Below are positions 10,268-55,795 of a stretch of DNA of 64,000 bases, one piece after another. The DNA lies in NCBI RefSeq assembly GCF_028463845.1, contig NZ_CP116805.1, forward strand, positions 1,736,001 to 1,800,000. Reading direction: 5' to 3'. The translations under genes and the position numbers were made by a program. The DNA comes from Gimibacter soli (GTDB lineage Bacteria; Pseudomonadota; Alphaproteobacteria; Sphingomonadales; Kordiimonadaceae). Position 1 is the stretch's first letter; each line of letters begins with the position of its first letter. Under the pieces are notes generated by a model, which saw only the letters and a list, made by a program, of their open reading frames with translations, did no database searches and was not told the origin of the DNA.

Positions 10268-10287
10268 AATCATAATCATTCTCATTC
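10268..10287 (+). promoter_or_regulatory. Fur-type iron box upstream of the TonB receptor
   Basis: AATCATAATCATTCTCATTC is a run of NAT-type hexamers matching the classical Fur box and ends 10 bases before the receptor's ATG. It predicts iron-repressed expression. The short distance means it would overlap the transcription start or leader. Confidence 0.65.
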
Positions 10288-10297
10288 AGGGTGTGCC

Positions 10298-12535
10298 ATG
10301 TCCACGAAAACCTTCCCCGTACTTGCTACTCTTACGGCCATCTGTGCGCTCACCGTCGGCGCTTCCGCGGATGTGGCGTCGGAGGCTGGCTCGGCTGAAG
10401 ATATTGCCTTTATCGAGCCCGCCATTGAGCGCATCCAGGTCATTGGCCGGAAGACAGAACGCAGTTCCATCGCCGGTTCGGCCACGCGCCTTGATGAAGA
10501 AGATCTGCAAGTTTTCCGTCATACGGATATCCAGCGTGTGCTGCGTGCTGTGCCTGGCGTCAGCATTCAGGAAGAAGATGGATATGGCCTTCGTCCCAAT
10601 ATCGGGATGCGCGGCACCGGCACCGACCGTTCCGCGAAAATCACACTGATGGAAGATGGGGTGCTTATCGCCCCAGCGCCTTATGCGGCTCCGGCGGCCT
10701 ATTATTTCCCGACCACGGCGCGCATGGAAGCGATCGAGGTCCGCAAGGGCTCTTCGGCGGTCAAGTTTGGTCCCCGTACGGTGGGCGGCGCCTTGAATCT
10801 TGTCAGCCGCTCGATCCCGGACGATGTCGCCGGCTTTCTTGACGCACGTGGCGGCAGCGACAGTTTCTATGCCCTGCACGGTGCCATCGGAGGCACCCTC
10901 GATAATCTGGGCGGCCTGATCGAGGCCTATCGTTCGAACAATGACGGCTTCAAGACGCTGGCGAATGGCGGCGACACCGGCTTCGAAGTTGAGGACTATC
11001 TGGCCAAAGCACGTATCACGACCAGCGAGGACGCAACGGTCTTCCAGTCGCTCGAAATCAAACTCAGCAAGACAAAGAACGATTCAAACGAAACCTATCT
11101 TGGGCTGTCGCGCGAGGACTTCGAAGCCGATCCCTATCAGCGCTATGCGGCCAGCGAACGTGACCGGATGGAAACGGACCACGAGCAGATCGCTTTGACC
11201 CACGTGCTGCGTGTTGCCGACATCGAATTGGTGACCACGGCATATCAAAATGATTTTGAGCGCGACTGGTTCAAGTTCGATGATCTGTTCCTGAACGGTG
11301 CTTCGGTGTCGGCTGCCGGCGTGCTTGCCAACCCGGCGTCCAATCCGCTGGCTTACGCCTACCTCCGTGGAACGGCGGACAGCCCGGCTGGCGCTATCCG
11401 CTTGCAGCACAATGCCCGCACCTACGGGGCCAAGGGTGTGCAGAGCCTTCTGGCGCTGCCTTTCACGACGGGCGCTGCGTCGCACGATCTGGAAGTATCT
11501 GTTCGCTATCATGAGGATTATGAAAGCCGTCTGCAGTATCGTGAATCCTTCACGATGAAAGACGGGCATCTGTCGTTCGCCTCTGCCGGCGCTCCGGGCT
11601 CGTCGGGTAACCGCAAGGTTGCCGCCAATGCCTGGGCGGCGATGGTGCAGGACACGATCACGTTCGGGTCTCTGACCCTTGTACCCGGCGTGCGGTTCGA
11701 AACGATCGAACTCAGCCGTACTGACTGGGCATCGAACGATCCGGGCCGCACCGGCACTGCCACGACCCTGCCAGCCAAGCGGATCAAAGCGGCTGTCCCC
11801 GGCCTTGGTATTTCCTACGATCTTGACAACGGGGTGACGCTTACCGGGGGCGTTTTCAAAGGTTTCAATCCGCCGGCAGTCGGGGAGGGCGACGTCCGCG
11901 AGGAGGAAAGCCTGAACATCGAAGCCGGGGCCATCGTCGATCTTGGCGCATTCCACGGCGAAGCGATCATCTATGTGAATGACTATGACAATATCCTTGG
12001 CACCTGTACGGCGTCCGTCGCGTGCAACACTGGTGATATTGGCGACCAGTTCAATGGCGGCAAGGCCGTGATCAAGGGCCTCGAAGTCGCTGGCGGCTAC
12101 AGTTTCGTTGTAGCTGACGGTTTCACCGTGCCCGTTTCGCTTACCTATACCTTTACGGACGCGGAGTTTCGCACCAGCTTCTCCAGCGGTTTCTGGGGCA
12201 GCGTCGAGAAGGGCGATGCGCTGCCCTATGTCGCTCGCCACCAGGTGACGGTAGGCGCTTCTGTGGTGACCGAACCTTTCACCGTGTCGCTACAGGGCAA
12301 TTATGTGAACGCCGCCCGCACCACTGCTGGCCAAGGGGCTATCCCGGCGGATGAAAAAGTGGACGGCCGCTTCGTTCTTGATGCATCAGCCCAGTGGCGG
12401 GTCACGGAGCATGTAGAGCTCTATGCCATAGCCCAAAACCTGCTTGACGCCACCTATGCGGTTTCGGTGCATCCCATTGGGCTGCGGCCGGGCGCGCCGC
12501 GCACTTTAATCGGGGGTGTCAAGTTCAGTTTCTAA
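10298..12535 (+). CDS. TonB-dependent receptor, FecA-like
   Basis: 745 residues from the ATG at 10298. A signal peptide is followed by a TonB-box-like IERIQVIG, a plug domain (LRAVPGVSIQEEDGYGLRPN, then the iron-siderophore-type GMRGTGTDRSAKITLMEDG and APAPYAAPAAYYFP), and a 22-strand-type barrel ending in the aromatic KFSF. The plug is closest to ferric citrate receptors, but the N-terminal signalling domain of FecA is absent and no fecI/fecR is nearby. It is therefore predicted to be a plain iron-chelate importer. The Fur box just upstream supports an iron role. The exact ligand is not known. Confidence 0.88.
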   Translation: MSTKTFPVLATLTAICALTVGASADVASEAGSAEDIAFIEPAIERIQVIGRKTERSSIAGSATRLDEEDLQVFRHTDIQRVLRAVPGVSIQEEDGYGLRPNIGMRGTGTDRSAKITLMEDGVLIAPAPYAAPAAYYFPTTARMEAIEVRKGSSAVKFGPRTVGGALNLVSRSIPDDVAGFLDARGGSDSFYALHGAIGGTLDNLGGLIEAYRSNNDGFKTLANGGDTGFEVEDYLAKARITTSEDATVFQSLEIKLSKTKNDSNETYLGLSREDFEADPYQRYAASERDRMETDHEQIALTHVLRVADIELVTTAYQNDFERDWFKFDDLFLNGASVSAAGVLANPASNPLAYAYLRGTADSPAGAIRLQHNARTYGAKGVQSLLALPFTTGAASHDLEVSVRYHEDYESRLQYRESFTMKDGHLSFASAGAPGSSGNRKVAANAWAAMVQDTITFGSLTLVPGVRFETIELSRTDWASNDPGRTGTATTLPAKRIKAAVPGLGISYDLDNGVTLTGGVFKGFNPPAVGEGDVREEESLNIEAGAIVDLGAFHGEAIIYVNDYDNILGTCTASVACNTGDIGDQFNGGKAVIKGLEVAGGYSFVVADGFTVPVSLTYTFTDAEFRTSFSSGFWGSVEKGDALPYVARHQVTVGASVVTEPFTVSLQGNYVNAARTTAGQGAIPADEKVDGRFVLDASAQWRVTEHVELYAIAQNLLDATYAVSVHPIGLRPGAPRTLIGGVKFSF

Positions 12536-46637: not shown

Positions 46638-46967
46638 TCAGGCGGCGACGCCTTTTTCCGTGAAGAGCGACTGAAGTTCGCCCGTCTGGAACATTTCCTT
46701 CACGATATCGCAGCCGCCAACGAATTCACCCTTCACATAAAGCTGGGGAATGGTCGGCCAGTCGGAATAGGCCTTGATGCCTTCGCGCAGTTCCATGTCT
46801 TCAAGGACGTTGTAGGACTGGTATTTGACATCGAGGTGATTGAGAACCTGCGACACAACGGACGAGAAGCCGCACTGCGGGAAGACCGGGGTGCCCTTCA
46901 TGAACAGGACAACATCGTCCTTGGTCACATAGTCGCGGATACGCTCGAAAATCGGCTGGTCGGTCAT
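46638..46967 (-). CDS. grxD: Monothiol glutaredoxin, Grx4 family
   Basis: 109 residues with the monothiol site PQCGFS and the glutathione-binding WPTIPQLYVKGEFVGGCDI. Carries and delivers 2Fe-2S clusters, usually as a dimer or as a complex with a BolA protein. The bolA gene lies 122 bases upstream on the same strand, the standard pairing. Confidence 0.96.
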   Translation of the reverse strand: MTDQPIFERIRDYVTKDDVVLFMKGTPVFPQCGFSSVVSQVLNHLDVKYQSYNVLEDMELREGIKAYSDWPTIPQLYVKGEFVGGCDIVKEMFQTGELQSLFTEKGVAA

Positions 46968-47089: not shown

Positions 47090-47323
47090 TCAGTCCGGCA
47101 CCGAGGTTTGCAGGGCAAGCGCGTGCAGTTCGTTCCCCATGCGGCCCTTCAGGCTCTGGTACACCATCTGGTGCTGCTGCACCCGCGATTTGCCCCTGAA
47201 GCCTTCATAGATCACATGGGCCGCATAATGGTCGCCGTCGCCACGCAGGTCATCGATTTGCACCTTGGCGCCGGGCAGCGCTTCCTGGATGAATTCGGTG
47301 ATGGCTTCTGCGGTCATGGCCAT
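47090..47323 (-). CDS. bolA: BolA/IbaG family iron-sulfur protein
   Basis: 77 residues from the ATG at 47323 (GAGGGG eight bases upstream); the frame runs on to 47344 but that start has no ribosome site. The BolA core HYAAHVIYEGFRGKSRVQQHQMVY includes the invariant His used to bind the 2Fe-2S cluster with Grx4, followed by the family tail HALALQTSVPD. Works with the adjacent grxD in iron sensing or cluster delivery. Confidence 0.93.
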   Translation of the reverse strand: MAMTAEAITEFIQEALPGAKVQIDDLRGDGDHYAAHVIYEGFRGKSRVQQHQMVYQSLKGRMGNELHALALQTSVPD

Positions 47324-47439
47324 GGCTTTGTCCCCTCTCGGCAAGGCACCCCGCGACGGGGGCGCTTTTCTTCAAACATATCTCTTTATATGGTGGCAGG
47401 CGGGGCCAATGCAATCGGCCTTCAAGGGGGGAGACGACG

Positions 47440-48291: not shown

Positions 48292-48828
48292 CTAGTGAAT
48301 AGTCACGCCCGTATTGTCTGCGAGCACGGCGATGGTGAGCGAGCGGGTCTCATGGTCGGTGGGCGGGCTGAGGCGGTAGCCGCTGCCTGAAAGGTGATCC
48401 ACAAACAGGATCAGGGCGTGTTCGGCCAGTGCCATGCCGTCGCCCTTGAACCAGTGGCCAAGGATCGTGCGGCCACGTTCCACCTGGGCATTCTGGTAGG
48501 CGCCGGCGGCGGCGATGATGCGGCGTTCGTCCATCGTCATCTGTTGGCAGGCGCAGCATTTCACATTCACCTTGCGGGCGGAGCGCCGGGCGACAAGGCC
48601 CATGAACTGGTCCCAGTGGCGCGAGGCCATCGGGCCGCCGGCAACACAAAAGGCGCGGTGCCAGGCATCGATATGACGGGCAAGTCGGGCGCTGCCGGCC
48701 TCGGCCGTCAGCGCCCCCACCCATTGCCGCGTCACGTGCAACACAAACCTTTCCGCGGCTCCGGAGGGGAGGGTAGAGAGGGTGGAAACCTGCGGCAGGC
48801 TTGTGTTGGATACGGAACGTTCGGGCAT
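48292..48828 (-). CDS. Unknown cytoplasmic protein with CCxC motif, Fur-box associated
   Basis: 178 residues from the ATG at 48828 (GGAG eight bases upstream); an in-frame ATG at 48858 lies closer to the operator and has no ribosome site. Mostly helical with a cysteine cluster VKCCACQQMTMDE at the centre, then AAAGAYQNAQVERGR and WFKGDGMALAEHALIL. Similar short proteins with CCxC-x-x-DE exist in alphaproteobacteria (memory, weak). A Fur-like palindrome lies 40 bases upstream, so an iron-linked role is possible. Function unknown. Confidence 0.7.
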   Translation of the reverse strand: MPERSVSNTSLPQVSTLSTLPSGAAERFVLHVTRQWVGALTAEAGSARLARHIDAWHRAFCVAGGPMASRHWDQFMGLVARRSARKVNVKCCACQQMTMDERRIIAAAGAYQNAQVERGRTILGHWFKGDGMALAEHALILFVDHLSGSGYRLSPPTDHETRSLTIAVLADNTGVTIH

Positions 48829-48867
48829 GGTGTCAGCTCCCTTGCTGTCGTTGCCCATGTAGTGTAA

Positions 48868-48884
48868 TTGCGAATCATTCGCAA
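48868..48884 (-). promoter_or_regulatory. Perfect Fur-like palindrome
   Basis: TTGCGAATCATTCGCAA is a perfect 17-bp palindrome of 8-1-8 form and fits the Fur 7-1-7 consensus TGANAAT-N-ATTNTCA in its core, with C/G at the variable positions as in several alphaproteobacterial Fur sites. It lies 40 bases upstream of the unknown CCxC protein gene. Confidence 0.6.
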
Positions 48885-48963
48885 TATCAAGATAAAAATC
48901 AGATAACAGGAAAGACGAAAAAGGGCAGGGGGTTACAGGCTGATGGTGCCCGAATTTGCGGTG

Positions 48964-54424: not shown

Positions 54425-55795
54425 ATGCCCCAGACTATCGACCCCATTTTTCAGAACTTCCGCCACTATAATACCGCGCGCGTGCCCCGCTACACGAGCT
54501 ACCCGACGGCTGTGCAGTTCCATGACGGCATCACGGCTGACGACCAGCAGCGGTGGCTGATGGAAGTCGGGCCAGACCAGAGCCTTTCCCTCTATTTCCA
54601 CATTCCTTTCTGCCAACAGCTTTGCTGGTATTGCGGCTGCAACACGACGGTGACGCAGAACACGGGCCGCATGACCCGCAACACGCGTGCGCTGGTGATG
54701 GAAATTGAAAGGGTCGCGGACCTTCTGCCGCCGAAAATGGCGGTGCGGCACCTGCATTTCGGGGGCGGCACGCCGACATGGTTGCCGATGAGCGACATGG
54801 CAGCACTCGTCGCCCTCGTGCGCAAGCGCTTCAACCTGTTGCCGGATGCCGAGCTTGCCATCGAGATCGATCCCCGCACCATGTCGCGGCAAAAGGCCGG
54901 GGCACTTGCCGTGATGGGCTTCAACCGCGCAAGCCTTGGCGTGCAGGATTTCAATCCGGCTGTTCAGGCGCTGATCAATCGTATCCAGCCACCGCAGATG
55001 GTGGCTGATTGCATCACCTGGCTGCGCGACGCCGGGATCGATGCGATCAGTATGGACCTGATTTATGGCCTGCCGGGGCAAACCACCGAGGGACTGGTTG
55101 AAACCGTGCGTCAGGCTGTGCGCATGAAGCCGCAGCGCGTGGCGCTTTTCGGCTATGCGCACCTGCCATCGCGGCTGAAACACCAGCGCATGATCGCGAA
55201 CGATGCATTGCCCGGCGCCGAAGCGCGGCAAGATGCTGCCGAGGCCGCCGCCGCCGCACTGGTCGCCGCAGGCTATGATGCCATCGGCTTCGATCACTTT
55301 GCGCTGCTTGAGGACACATTGGCCGTTGCCGCGCGAGAAGGACACCTGCGCCGCAATTTCCAGGGCTATACAAACGACCCGGCCGATGTGCTGATCGGCT
55401 TTGGCGCTTCGGCGATCAGTGAACTGCCGGGCGGATACATCCAGAACAGTGCCCACATTGGCCAGTATGAAGCGGCGATTGAGGCGGGCGGCCTTGCCGG
55501 TGATCGCGGCGTGGCGATCACGGCGGATGACCGATTGCGCCGGGCGGTGATCGAGGCGCTCCTTTGCCAGTTCACGGCGGATGTCGGTGCGATCTGCAAG
55601 GCGCAGGGCCGGGCCGAAACAGCCCTTGATTCCGAAATCCTGCGGCTGACGCCCTTGCGCGCCGACGGGCTTTGCAGTGTGAAGGGCCGCACGGTGACCA
55701 TCCCGCCCGTCGCCCGCAACCATGCCCGCGTCGTTGCCGCCACGTTCGATGCTTACCTTGTGCCGGAAGCGGCAAGACATAGCGTTGCAGTCTGA
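54425..55795 (+). CDS. hemN: Oxygen-independent coproporphyrinogen III oxidase
   Basis: 456 residues with AGAAGGA upstream. Radical-SAM enzyme that makes protoporphyrinogen without oxygen. The cluster Cys are 63, 67 and 70 in CQQLCWYCGC, a CxxxCxxCxC motif typical of true HemN rather than of HemW. SMDLIYGLPGQT and the N-terminal RYTSYPTAVQF are also HemN-like. The FNR-type box upstream fits its use at low oxygen. Confidence 0.95.
   Translation: MPQTIDPIFQNFRHYNTARVPRYTSYPTAVQFHDGITADDQQRWLMEVGPDQSLSLYFHIPFCQQLCWYCGCNTTVTQNTGRMTRNTRALVMEIERVADLLPPKMAVRHLHFGGGTPTWLPMSDMAALVALVRKRFNLLPDAELAIEIDPRTMSRQKAGALAVMGFNRASLGVQDFNPAVQALINRIQPPQMVADCITWLRDAGIDAISMDLIYGLPGQTTEGLVETVRQAVRMKPQRVALFGYAHLPSRLKHQRMIANDALPGAEARQDAAEAAAAALVAAGYDAIGFDHFALLEDTLAVAAREGHLRRNFQGYTNDPADVLIGFGASAISELPGGYIQNSAHIGQYEAAIEAGGLAGDRGVAITADDRLRRAVIEALLCQFTADVGAICKAQGRAETALDSEILRLTPLRADGLCSVKGRTVTIPPVARNHARVVAATFDAYLVPEAARHSVAV

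Follow-up and report, generated by a model that had tools for sequence, protein, structure and literature searches.

The described systems that come closest to the gene studied here are Fur-box operons with an Fpr-type reductase, the HemP/HmuP hemin-uptake proteins, and the iron mobilization proteins Bfd and Bfr. For Sphingobium SYK-6, the section of PMC7376174 dealing with SLG_04320-04360 reports that these genes form one operon by RT-PCR, that a Fur-box-like sequence lies at its head, that SLG_04340 encodes a TonB receptor and SLG_04360 an FprA-like ferric reductase, and that Fur1 bound the promoter region tested for SLG_04340. For Caulobacter, the Fur-repressed genes named in PMC3751524 include bfd and several hypothetical proteins.

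We compared these systems with a gene found in a 64-kb window, by which we mean the whole stretch of DNA analyzed. Below, X denotes the protein encoded in the window or any member of its family, G numbers denote genomes, and L numbers denote loci. Like the FprA/Fpr operon of SYK-6, two X loci (G122 and G892) are Fur-box iron operons combining a receptor with a reductase, but X itself is not an Fpr. SLG_04350, which lies between SLG_04340 and SLG_04360 in the operon, would be the natural place for an X member and is a candidate by position. Like HemP/HmuP, X is a small protein of heme operons, and hemP adjoins it in several loci; unlike X, however, HemP/HmuP is encoded by a separate gene of 50-60 aa, and X has no match to the Pfam hemP model. 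X shares its type of box with bfd and bfr in its own genome and neighbors them in other loci, but by Pfam it is neither a BFD-like ferredoxin (Fer2_BFD) nor a ferritin. Our literature search found no description of the X family as iron-regulated, although the 2006 reconstruction of alphaproteobacterial Fur regulation may mention it. We propose that this family very probably represents an overlooked component of the alphaproteobacterial response to iron shortage.

The gene and its upstream region have the following features.

48295-48828 (48292-48828 with the stop codon), minus strand: coding sequence of X, 178 aa, from the open reading frame and its translation
48526-48558, minus strand: CCxC-x5-DE motif (C91 C92 A C94 x5 D100 E101), from the translation
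48721-48729, minus strand: R34-x-W36, a second conserved site, from the family alignment
48837-48843, minus strand: ribosome-binding-like AAGGGAG, 8 nt upstream of ATG 48828, by reading the sequence
48861-48866, minus strand: -10-like hexamer TACACT of a promoter-like pair
48867-48885, strandless: predicted Fur-type operator ATTGCGAATCATTCGCAAT, a perfect 19-bp odd palindrome with a single central base, from the sequence and homologue comparison
48885-48890, minus strand: -35-like hexamer TTGATA of the same promoter-like pair

The original prediction described a perfect 17-bp palindrome of Fur form some 40 bases before an unrecognized protein with a central CCxC-x5-DE cluster, and each of these elements is borne out. 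The 17-mer TTGCGAATCATTCGCAA at 48868-48884 is the core of the perfect 19-bp palindrome and lies 39 nt from ATG 48828, and the cluster spans C91 to E101. ATG 48828 is probably the start codon, because the alternative ATG at 48858 lacks a ribosome-binding-like sequence and is upstream of the expected transcript start. The operator occupies the 18-nt spacer of the TTGATA/TACACT pair, whose two hexamers together match 9 of 12 consensus positions (shuffles averaged 0.2), so that, as expected for a member of a Fur regulon, an inverted repeat overlaps the promoter. It also has the highest score (25.8) among 63,984 window positions under a Fur matrix learned from homologues. No second site with up to 3 mismatches to the palindrome was found in the 64-kb window, where shuffled sequences averaged 0.27 matches; the search lists one and the same site twice, once per strand.

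Profile look-ups assigned the 178-aa protein to no Pfam family, no PADLOC family and no credible NCBIfam model. When the protein and its relatives were compared with Pfam, NCBIfam, PADLOC and PDB sequences, matches were weak and scattered, except for DUF6628 in 3 of 65 members. A two-row AlphaFold model is all-helical, with a pLDDT of only 42. The nearest relative, in Pseudokordiimonas caeni, is 98% identical in protein sequence and its coding region differs by 18 synonymous and 4 non-synonymous changes (dN/dS ~0.07). Between the two upstream regions, identity is lost just above the -35/box region, and the box is unchanged. A chance palindrome next to a spurious ORF is accordingly an exceedingly improbable account of the locus: the genome of 3,591,784 bp holds no other perfect copy of the palindrome, it is kept in relatives, and the dN/dS value together with the box conservation in homologues rules out a spurious reading frame.

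Other Fur-type sites in the same genome place this palindrome among iron genes. The original prediction also held that a palindrome of the same type, a Fur box close to the start, precedes the TonB receptor in the window. That receptor does have a Fur-like box 12 nt before its start, but the palindrome is a different one. A search of the genome for TTGCGAATNATTCGCAA with up to 3 mismatches gave 7 sites, 5 of which precede the X gene, bfd, bfr, a heme-type receptor/DUF6607 pair and another TonB receptor. The window box and the genomic sites other than the X operator are as follows.

Window 10269-10285, strandless: second-best Fur-type box ATCATAATCATTCTCAT (score 18.4), 12 nt before a TonB-dependent receptor gene (10298-12535, identified by Pfam)
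Genome 145929: site of the divergent heme-type TonB receptor/DUF6607 pair (L134)
Genome 718952: bfd site
Genome 719808: bfr site
Genome 3563916: site of a TonB receptor recognized by eye
Genome 2300490 and 3029616: sites with no recognized iron gene nearby

Since sites of the same type stand before bfd, bfr and receptors, we regard the palindrome before X as the best copy of the operator that this genome would use for iron genes. The genome encodes one strong FUR-family protein (141 bits, C1:123069-123428) and one weak one (33.5 bits), and thus has both a candidate regulator and the box before known iron genes, as expected if X belongs to a Fur regulon. The second, weak FUR-family gene could suggest that the palindrome belongs instead to another regulator of the family, of the Mur, Zur or Irr type, but the occurrence of the same box type before bfd, bfr and TonB receptors makes this very unlikely. 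From the operator sequence, its conservation before homologues and its company, the X gene is almost certainly a direct Fur target.

Two of these sites merit separate mention. At 145929, the heme-type receptor gene and the DUF6607 gene diverge from one shared Fur-type palindrome; this arrangement, along with the presence of DUF6607 in the X-fpr operon of G122, makes DUF6607 look like an iron or heme gene. The site at 2300490 (L133), TTGCGAAAAATTCGCAA, is 1 mismatch from the pattern and lies 67 nt upstream of a gene that looks AsnC/Lrp-like by eye; it may be either a Fur target or a chance occurrence.

Absence of the palindrome before homologues would have counted against the original prediction of an iron-responsive gene under a Fur-type operator. 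We scanned homologues with a 17-bp Fur matrix that was seeded from an E. coli-type consensus, learned on one half of the sequences and tested on the other. We took the conserved domain, not the start codon, as the anchor of this test, because starts chosen by script are partly wrong (e.g., G311, G355, G312, L189), and G001, near-identical to the window genome, was removed from the counts of both sets. In the first set (75 genes, 74 after this removal), 58/74 homologues have a box by cross-validation, at a cut-off that lets through 5% of 853 neighbor-gene upstream regions and ~1.8% of 3472 windows; 37/74 pass at the 1% neighbor threshold. We quote the 5% threshold since the controls include upstream regions of real iron genes, which raises the 1% threshold. 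In a second set of 60 loci outside the training data, 52 have a box at a cut-off that 1% of 2483 windows reach. With this conservation, and with the same operator type before bfd, bfr and receptors, the predicted iron-responsive control appears well founded.

Several misses have a box elsewhere. In G013, G033, G044, G122 and L198, it lies either at the start of the operon's leading gene or ahead of that start, and in G461 it precedes the tandem partner. The tandem partners in G380 and G280 (G380b and G280b) exceed the 5% threshold by themselves, and a box was seen by eye before the long ORF of the fused G477. Where X follows hemP in L189, L190 and L195, no box was found before X or upstream of hemP, and no box accounts for G521, G521b, G503, G662, G818, G840, G173, G807, G844, L187, L192 or G053. 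Control by RirA or Irr, which PMC7376174 describes for iron genes of Rhizobiales and Rhodobacterales, may explain lineages that lack the box. In L187, X, bfr, bfd and a fur-family gene all lie within 2 kb, yet no Fur-type box was found. Plasmid homologues in Azospirillum (L127-L129) have TGCGAATGACTTGCA-type sites, and L200 has a related one.

The family itself is widespread. A search with the single protein matched 10 of 147 close genomes, the window genome included, and a 10-row profile matched 81/385 Alphaproteobacteria genomes and 16/398 genomes of a phylum-wide sample, G807 being the sole non-alphaproteobacterial genome among those 16. A 65-row profile, built from an alignment (A3) from which 10 of 75 rows had been excluded, matched 111/385 sampled alphaproteobacterial genomes, a count that is partly circular since members from the class sample went into the profile, and 67/196 genomes in the order. 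A hand count of labels gives about 50 taxonomic families among genomes with X. Tandem copies occur in G461, G380 and G280 and a divergent pair in G292, while two X domains appear to be fused in G477. Plasmid relatives were found in four Azospirillum records and one Novosphingobium record (two other queries gave none), and the annotated plasmid copies are labeled 'hypothetical protein'. Scans of viral contigs found no relative of X. Judged by sequence comparison, X is a real, widespread family without known function that lies behind predicted Fur-type operators, and the presence of such an operator before most tested copies, in a family found in 111/385 alphaproteobacterial genomes, suggests a conserved part of the iron response.

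Conservation within the family argues against the cysteine cluster as its defining feature, as had originally been supposed. Across 76 aligned rows, Glu (E101) is present in 76 and Arg (R34) in 75, followed by Gln (66), Trp (65) and Asp (63), whereas the CxxC cysteines are present in only 46 and 57. The ligand cysteines expected of a CxxC zinc or Fe-S protein are thus not conserved, a metal site common to the family is unproven, and we dropped a cysteine-centered mechanism. There is no invariant His in the family alignment.

Profile comparison moderately supports common ancestry of X with DUF6628 (PF20333), a Pfam family that has no assigned function and for which our literature search found no paper. 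The relation is clearer for a group that includes fpr-linked members (probability 97.6, E 5e-12) than for Kordiimonadaceae members (probability 85, E 6e-6). The Pfam model matches the same genes as the X profile in 6 of 22 genomes searched; its matches among the aligned members are weak and confined to 3/65, and the window protein does not reach the Pfam cut-off. A previously unexplained family would thereby be tied to iron.

What X does can be approached through its neighbors. We counted genes of the families listed below around 130 loci in bins of 0-2.5, 2.5-5 and 5-8 kb (641, 599 and 640 kb scanned), ignoring the relatedness of loci and excluding G001, G292c, G461, G380 and G280 as near-identical genomes or second copies in one locus. 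The numbers of loci per bin, in that order, are as follows.

Fpr: 7, 0, 0
Bfr: 9, 0, 4
Bfd: 7, 3, 3
Fur: 3, 0, 0
TonB receptor: 12, 7, 2
HemS: 1, 2, 1
DUF6607: 2, 0, 0
imelysin: 0, 3, 0
DUF4198: 1, 0, 0

The majority of family members stand alone. The original prediction of a stand-alone gene therefore holds for the window locus but fails for the family as a whole, part of which is found in iron operons. Same-strand X-fpr neighbors occur in G888, G892, G122, G066, G044 and the Novosphingobium resinovorum plasmid pSA1, where the box scores 23 bits. The most informative arrangements are given below.

G122: heme receptor-DUF6607-X-fpr
G892: siderophore-type receptor-X-fpr
G888: X-fpr
G044 (L113, 3012-10710): nine-gene same-strand cluster, receptor-tonB-DUF4198-EF hand-X-X-fpr-X-fur, the last X at only E 2e-4 by the first profile
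G003, second copy: fpr divergent, X, then fur directly
G347: X, bfd 13 nt on, then bfr

Because fpr, bfd/bfr, and heme receptors with hemP have in common that they provide electrons or carriers for intracellular extraction of iron from heme, ferric complexes or ferritin, these close partners lead us to favor X as an accessory of Fpr-type iron release. When iron is replete, Fur-Fe would cover the operator between -35 and -10 and keep the X gene off; under iron starvation, X would be made along with bfd, bfr and TonB receptors. X would then act as a small helical factor, probably in the cytosol, after iron import or on remobilization, assisting the ferredoxin/ferric reductase Fpr either directly or via Bfd, with iron released or reduced from carriers such as heme, ferric complexes or bacterioferritin. 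The conserved Arg and Glu may form a structural or docking core, and the CxxC, where present, could be an optional metal or redox site. We hold this explanation as a whole, a Fur-repressed cytosolic protein that helps Fpr to release or reduce iron, tentatively and at somewhat less than an even chance. Its biochemical half, that X aids Fpr-driven iron release or reduction, is possible but on balance doubtful: Fpr is near X in just 7/130 loci, and the 4 Bfr matches at 5-8 kb weaken the distance contrast. An obligate Fpr partnership finds no support, since most members stand alone and Fpr is so rarely near. Members of the family, including those of Azospirillum and Novosphingobium, offer a ready test set for the intracellular release of imported iron.

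The solitary majority and the variety of linked iron systems (FTR1, imelysin, hemP, heme and siderophore receptors, fpr, bfr and fur) make a close rival of the idea that X regulates the iron-starvation response in general or serves it as an adaptor, binding, for example, Fur, TonB, mRNA or an iron enzyme and standing outside iron chemistry. Tandem and fused copies would fit such a role, as would the position of X directly before fur in G003 and inside the fur operon of G044. However, profile searches recognized no nucleic-acid-binding or known regulator family, and fur neighbors X in only 3/130 loci, so we consider this rather unlikely. In G844, X is flanked by genes for an extracellular solute-binding protein and an inner-membrane permease; at L189 it is accompanied by a solute-binding protein and imelysin, and at L197 by FTR1 and a receptor. 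The solute-binding proteins of G844 and L189 presumably carry iron.

Receptors and hemP also raise the possibility that X is specific to heme, as a cytosolic heme carrier or a part of heme degradation, supplied by heme TonB receptors and with Fpr as its reductant. X immediately follows a receptor in G013 and G033, and receptors adjoining X score above the TIGR01785 or TIGR01786 heme cut-offs in G033 (TIGR01785), G122, G236 and G500. hemP closely precedes X in L189, L190 and L195, with its stop overlapping the X start in the latter two, and is near X in five more loci (G236, G500, L170, L173 and L188); Pfam confirmed hemP in 6/6 peptides tested. G236 has HemS too, and the gene order of G122 fits a heme role. 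In a search of 24 genomes, Pfam heme oxygenase was found in 0/10 genomes with X and 3/14 without it. Against this, the family lacks an invariant His, hemP is missing from the window genome and 20/23 others searched, the best NCBIfam models point to siderophore-like receptors next to X in G892, G003b and G013 (only G892 above cut-off), and further neighbors are unrelated to heme. A heme-specific role is unlikely, and ranks third, behind the Fpr accessory and the general regulator or adaptor.

A bolder form of the favored Fpr-accessory reading would make X a new cytosolic iron-release protein that receives imported heme or ferric iron and passes it on to Fpr. If true, X would take the place of classical heme oxygenases or ferric-siderophore reductases across many Alphaproteobacteria. 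X itself does not match Pfam heme oxygenase (PF01126), and the distribution of that enzyme is compatible with replacement but argues for it weakly, since 11/14 genomes without X also lack it. We judge this form improbable.

The surroundings of the X gene in the window include other genes of potential interest. Glutaredoxin and BolA-like genes (Pfam; 46638-46967 and 47090-47344, minus strand) lie ~1 kb beyond X, separated from it by an alpha/beta hydrolase on the opposite strand; Grx4-BolA pairs are known in iron signaling. A radical SAM gene (Pfam) at 54425-55795 on the plus strand resembles one for an oxygen-independent coproporphyrinogen oxidase of heme synthesis.
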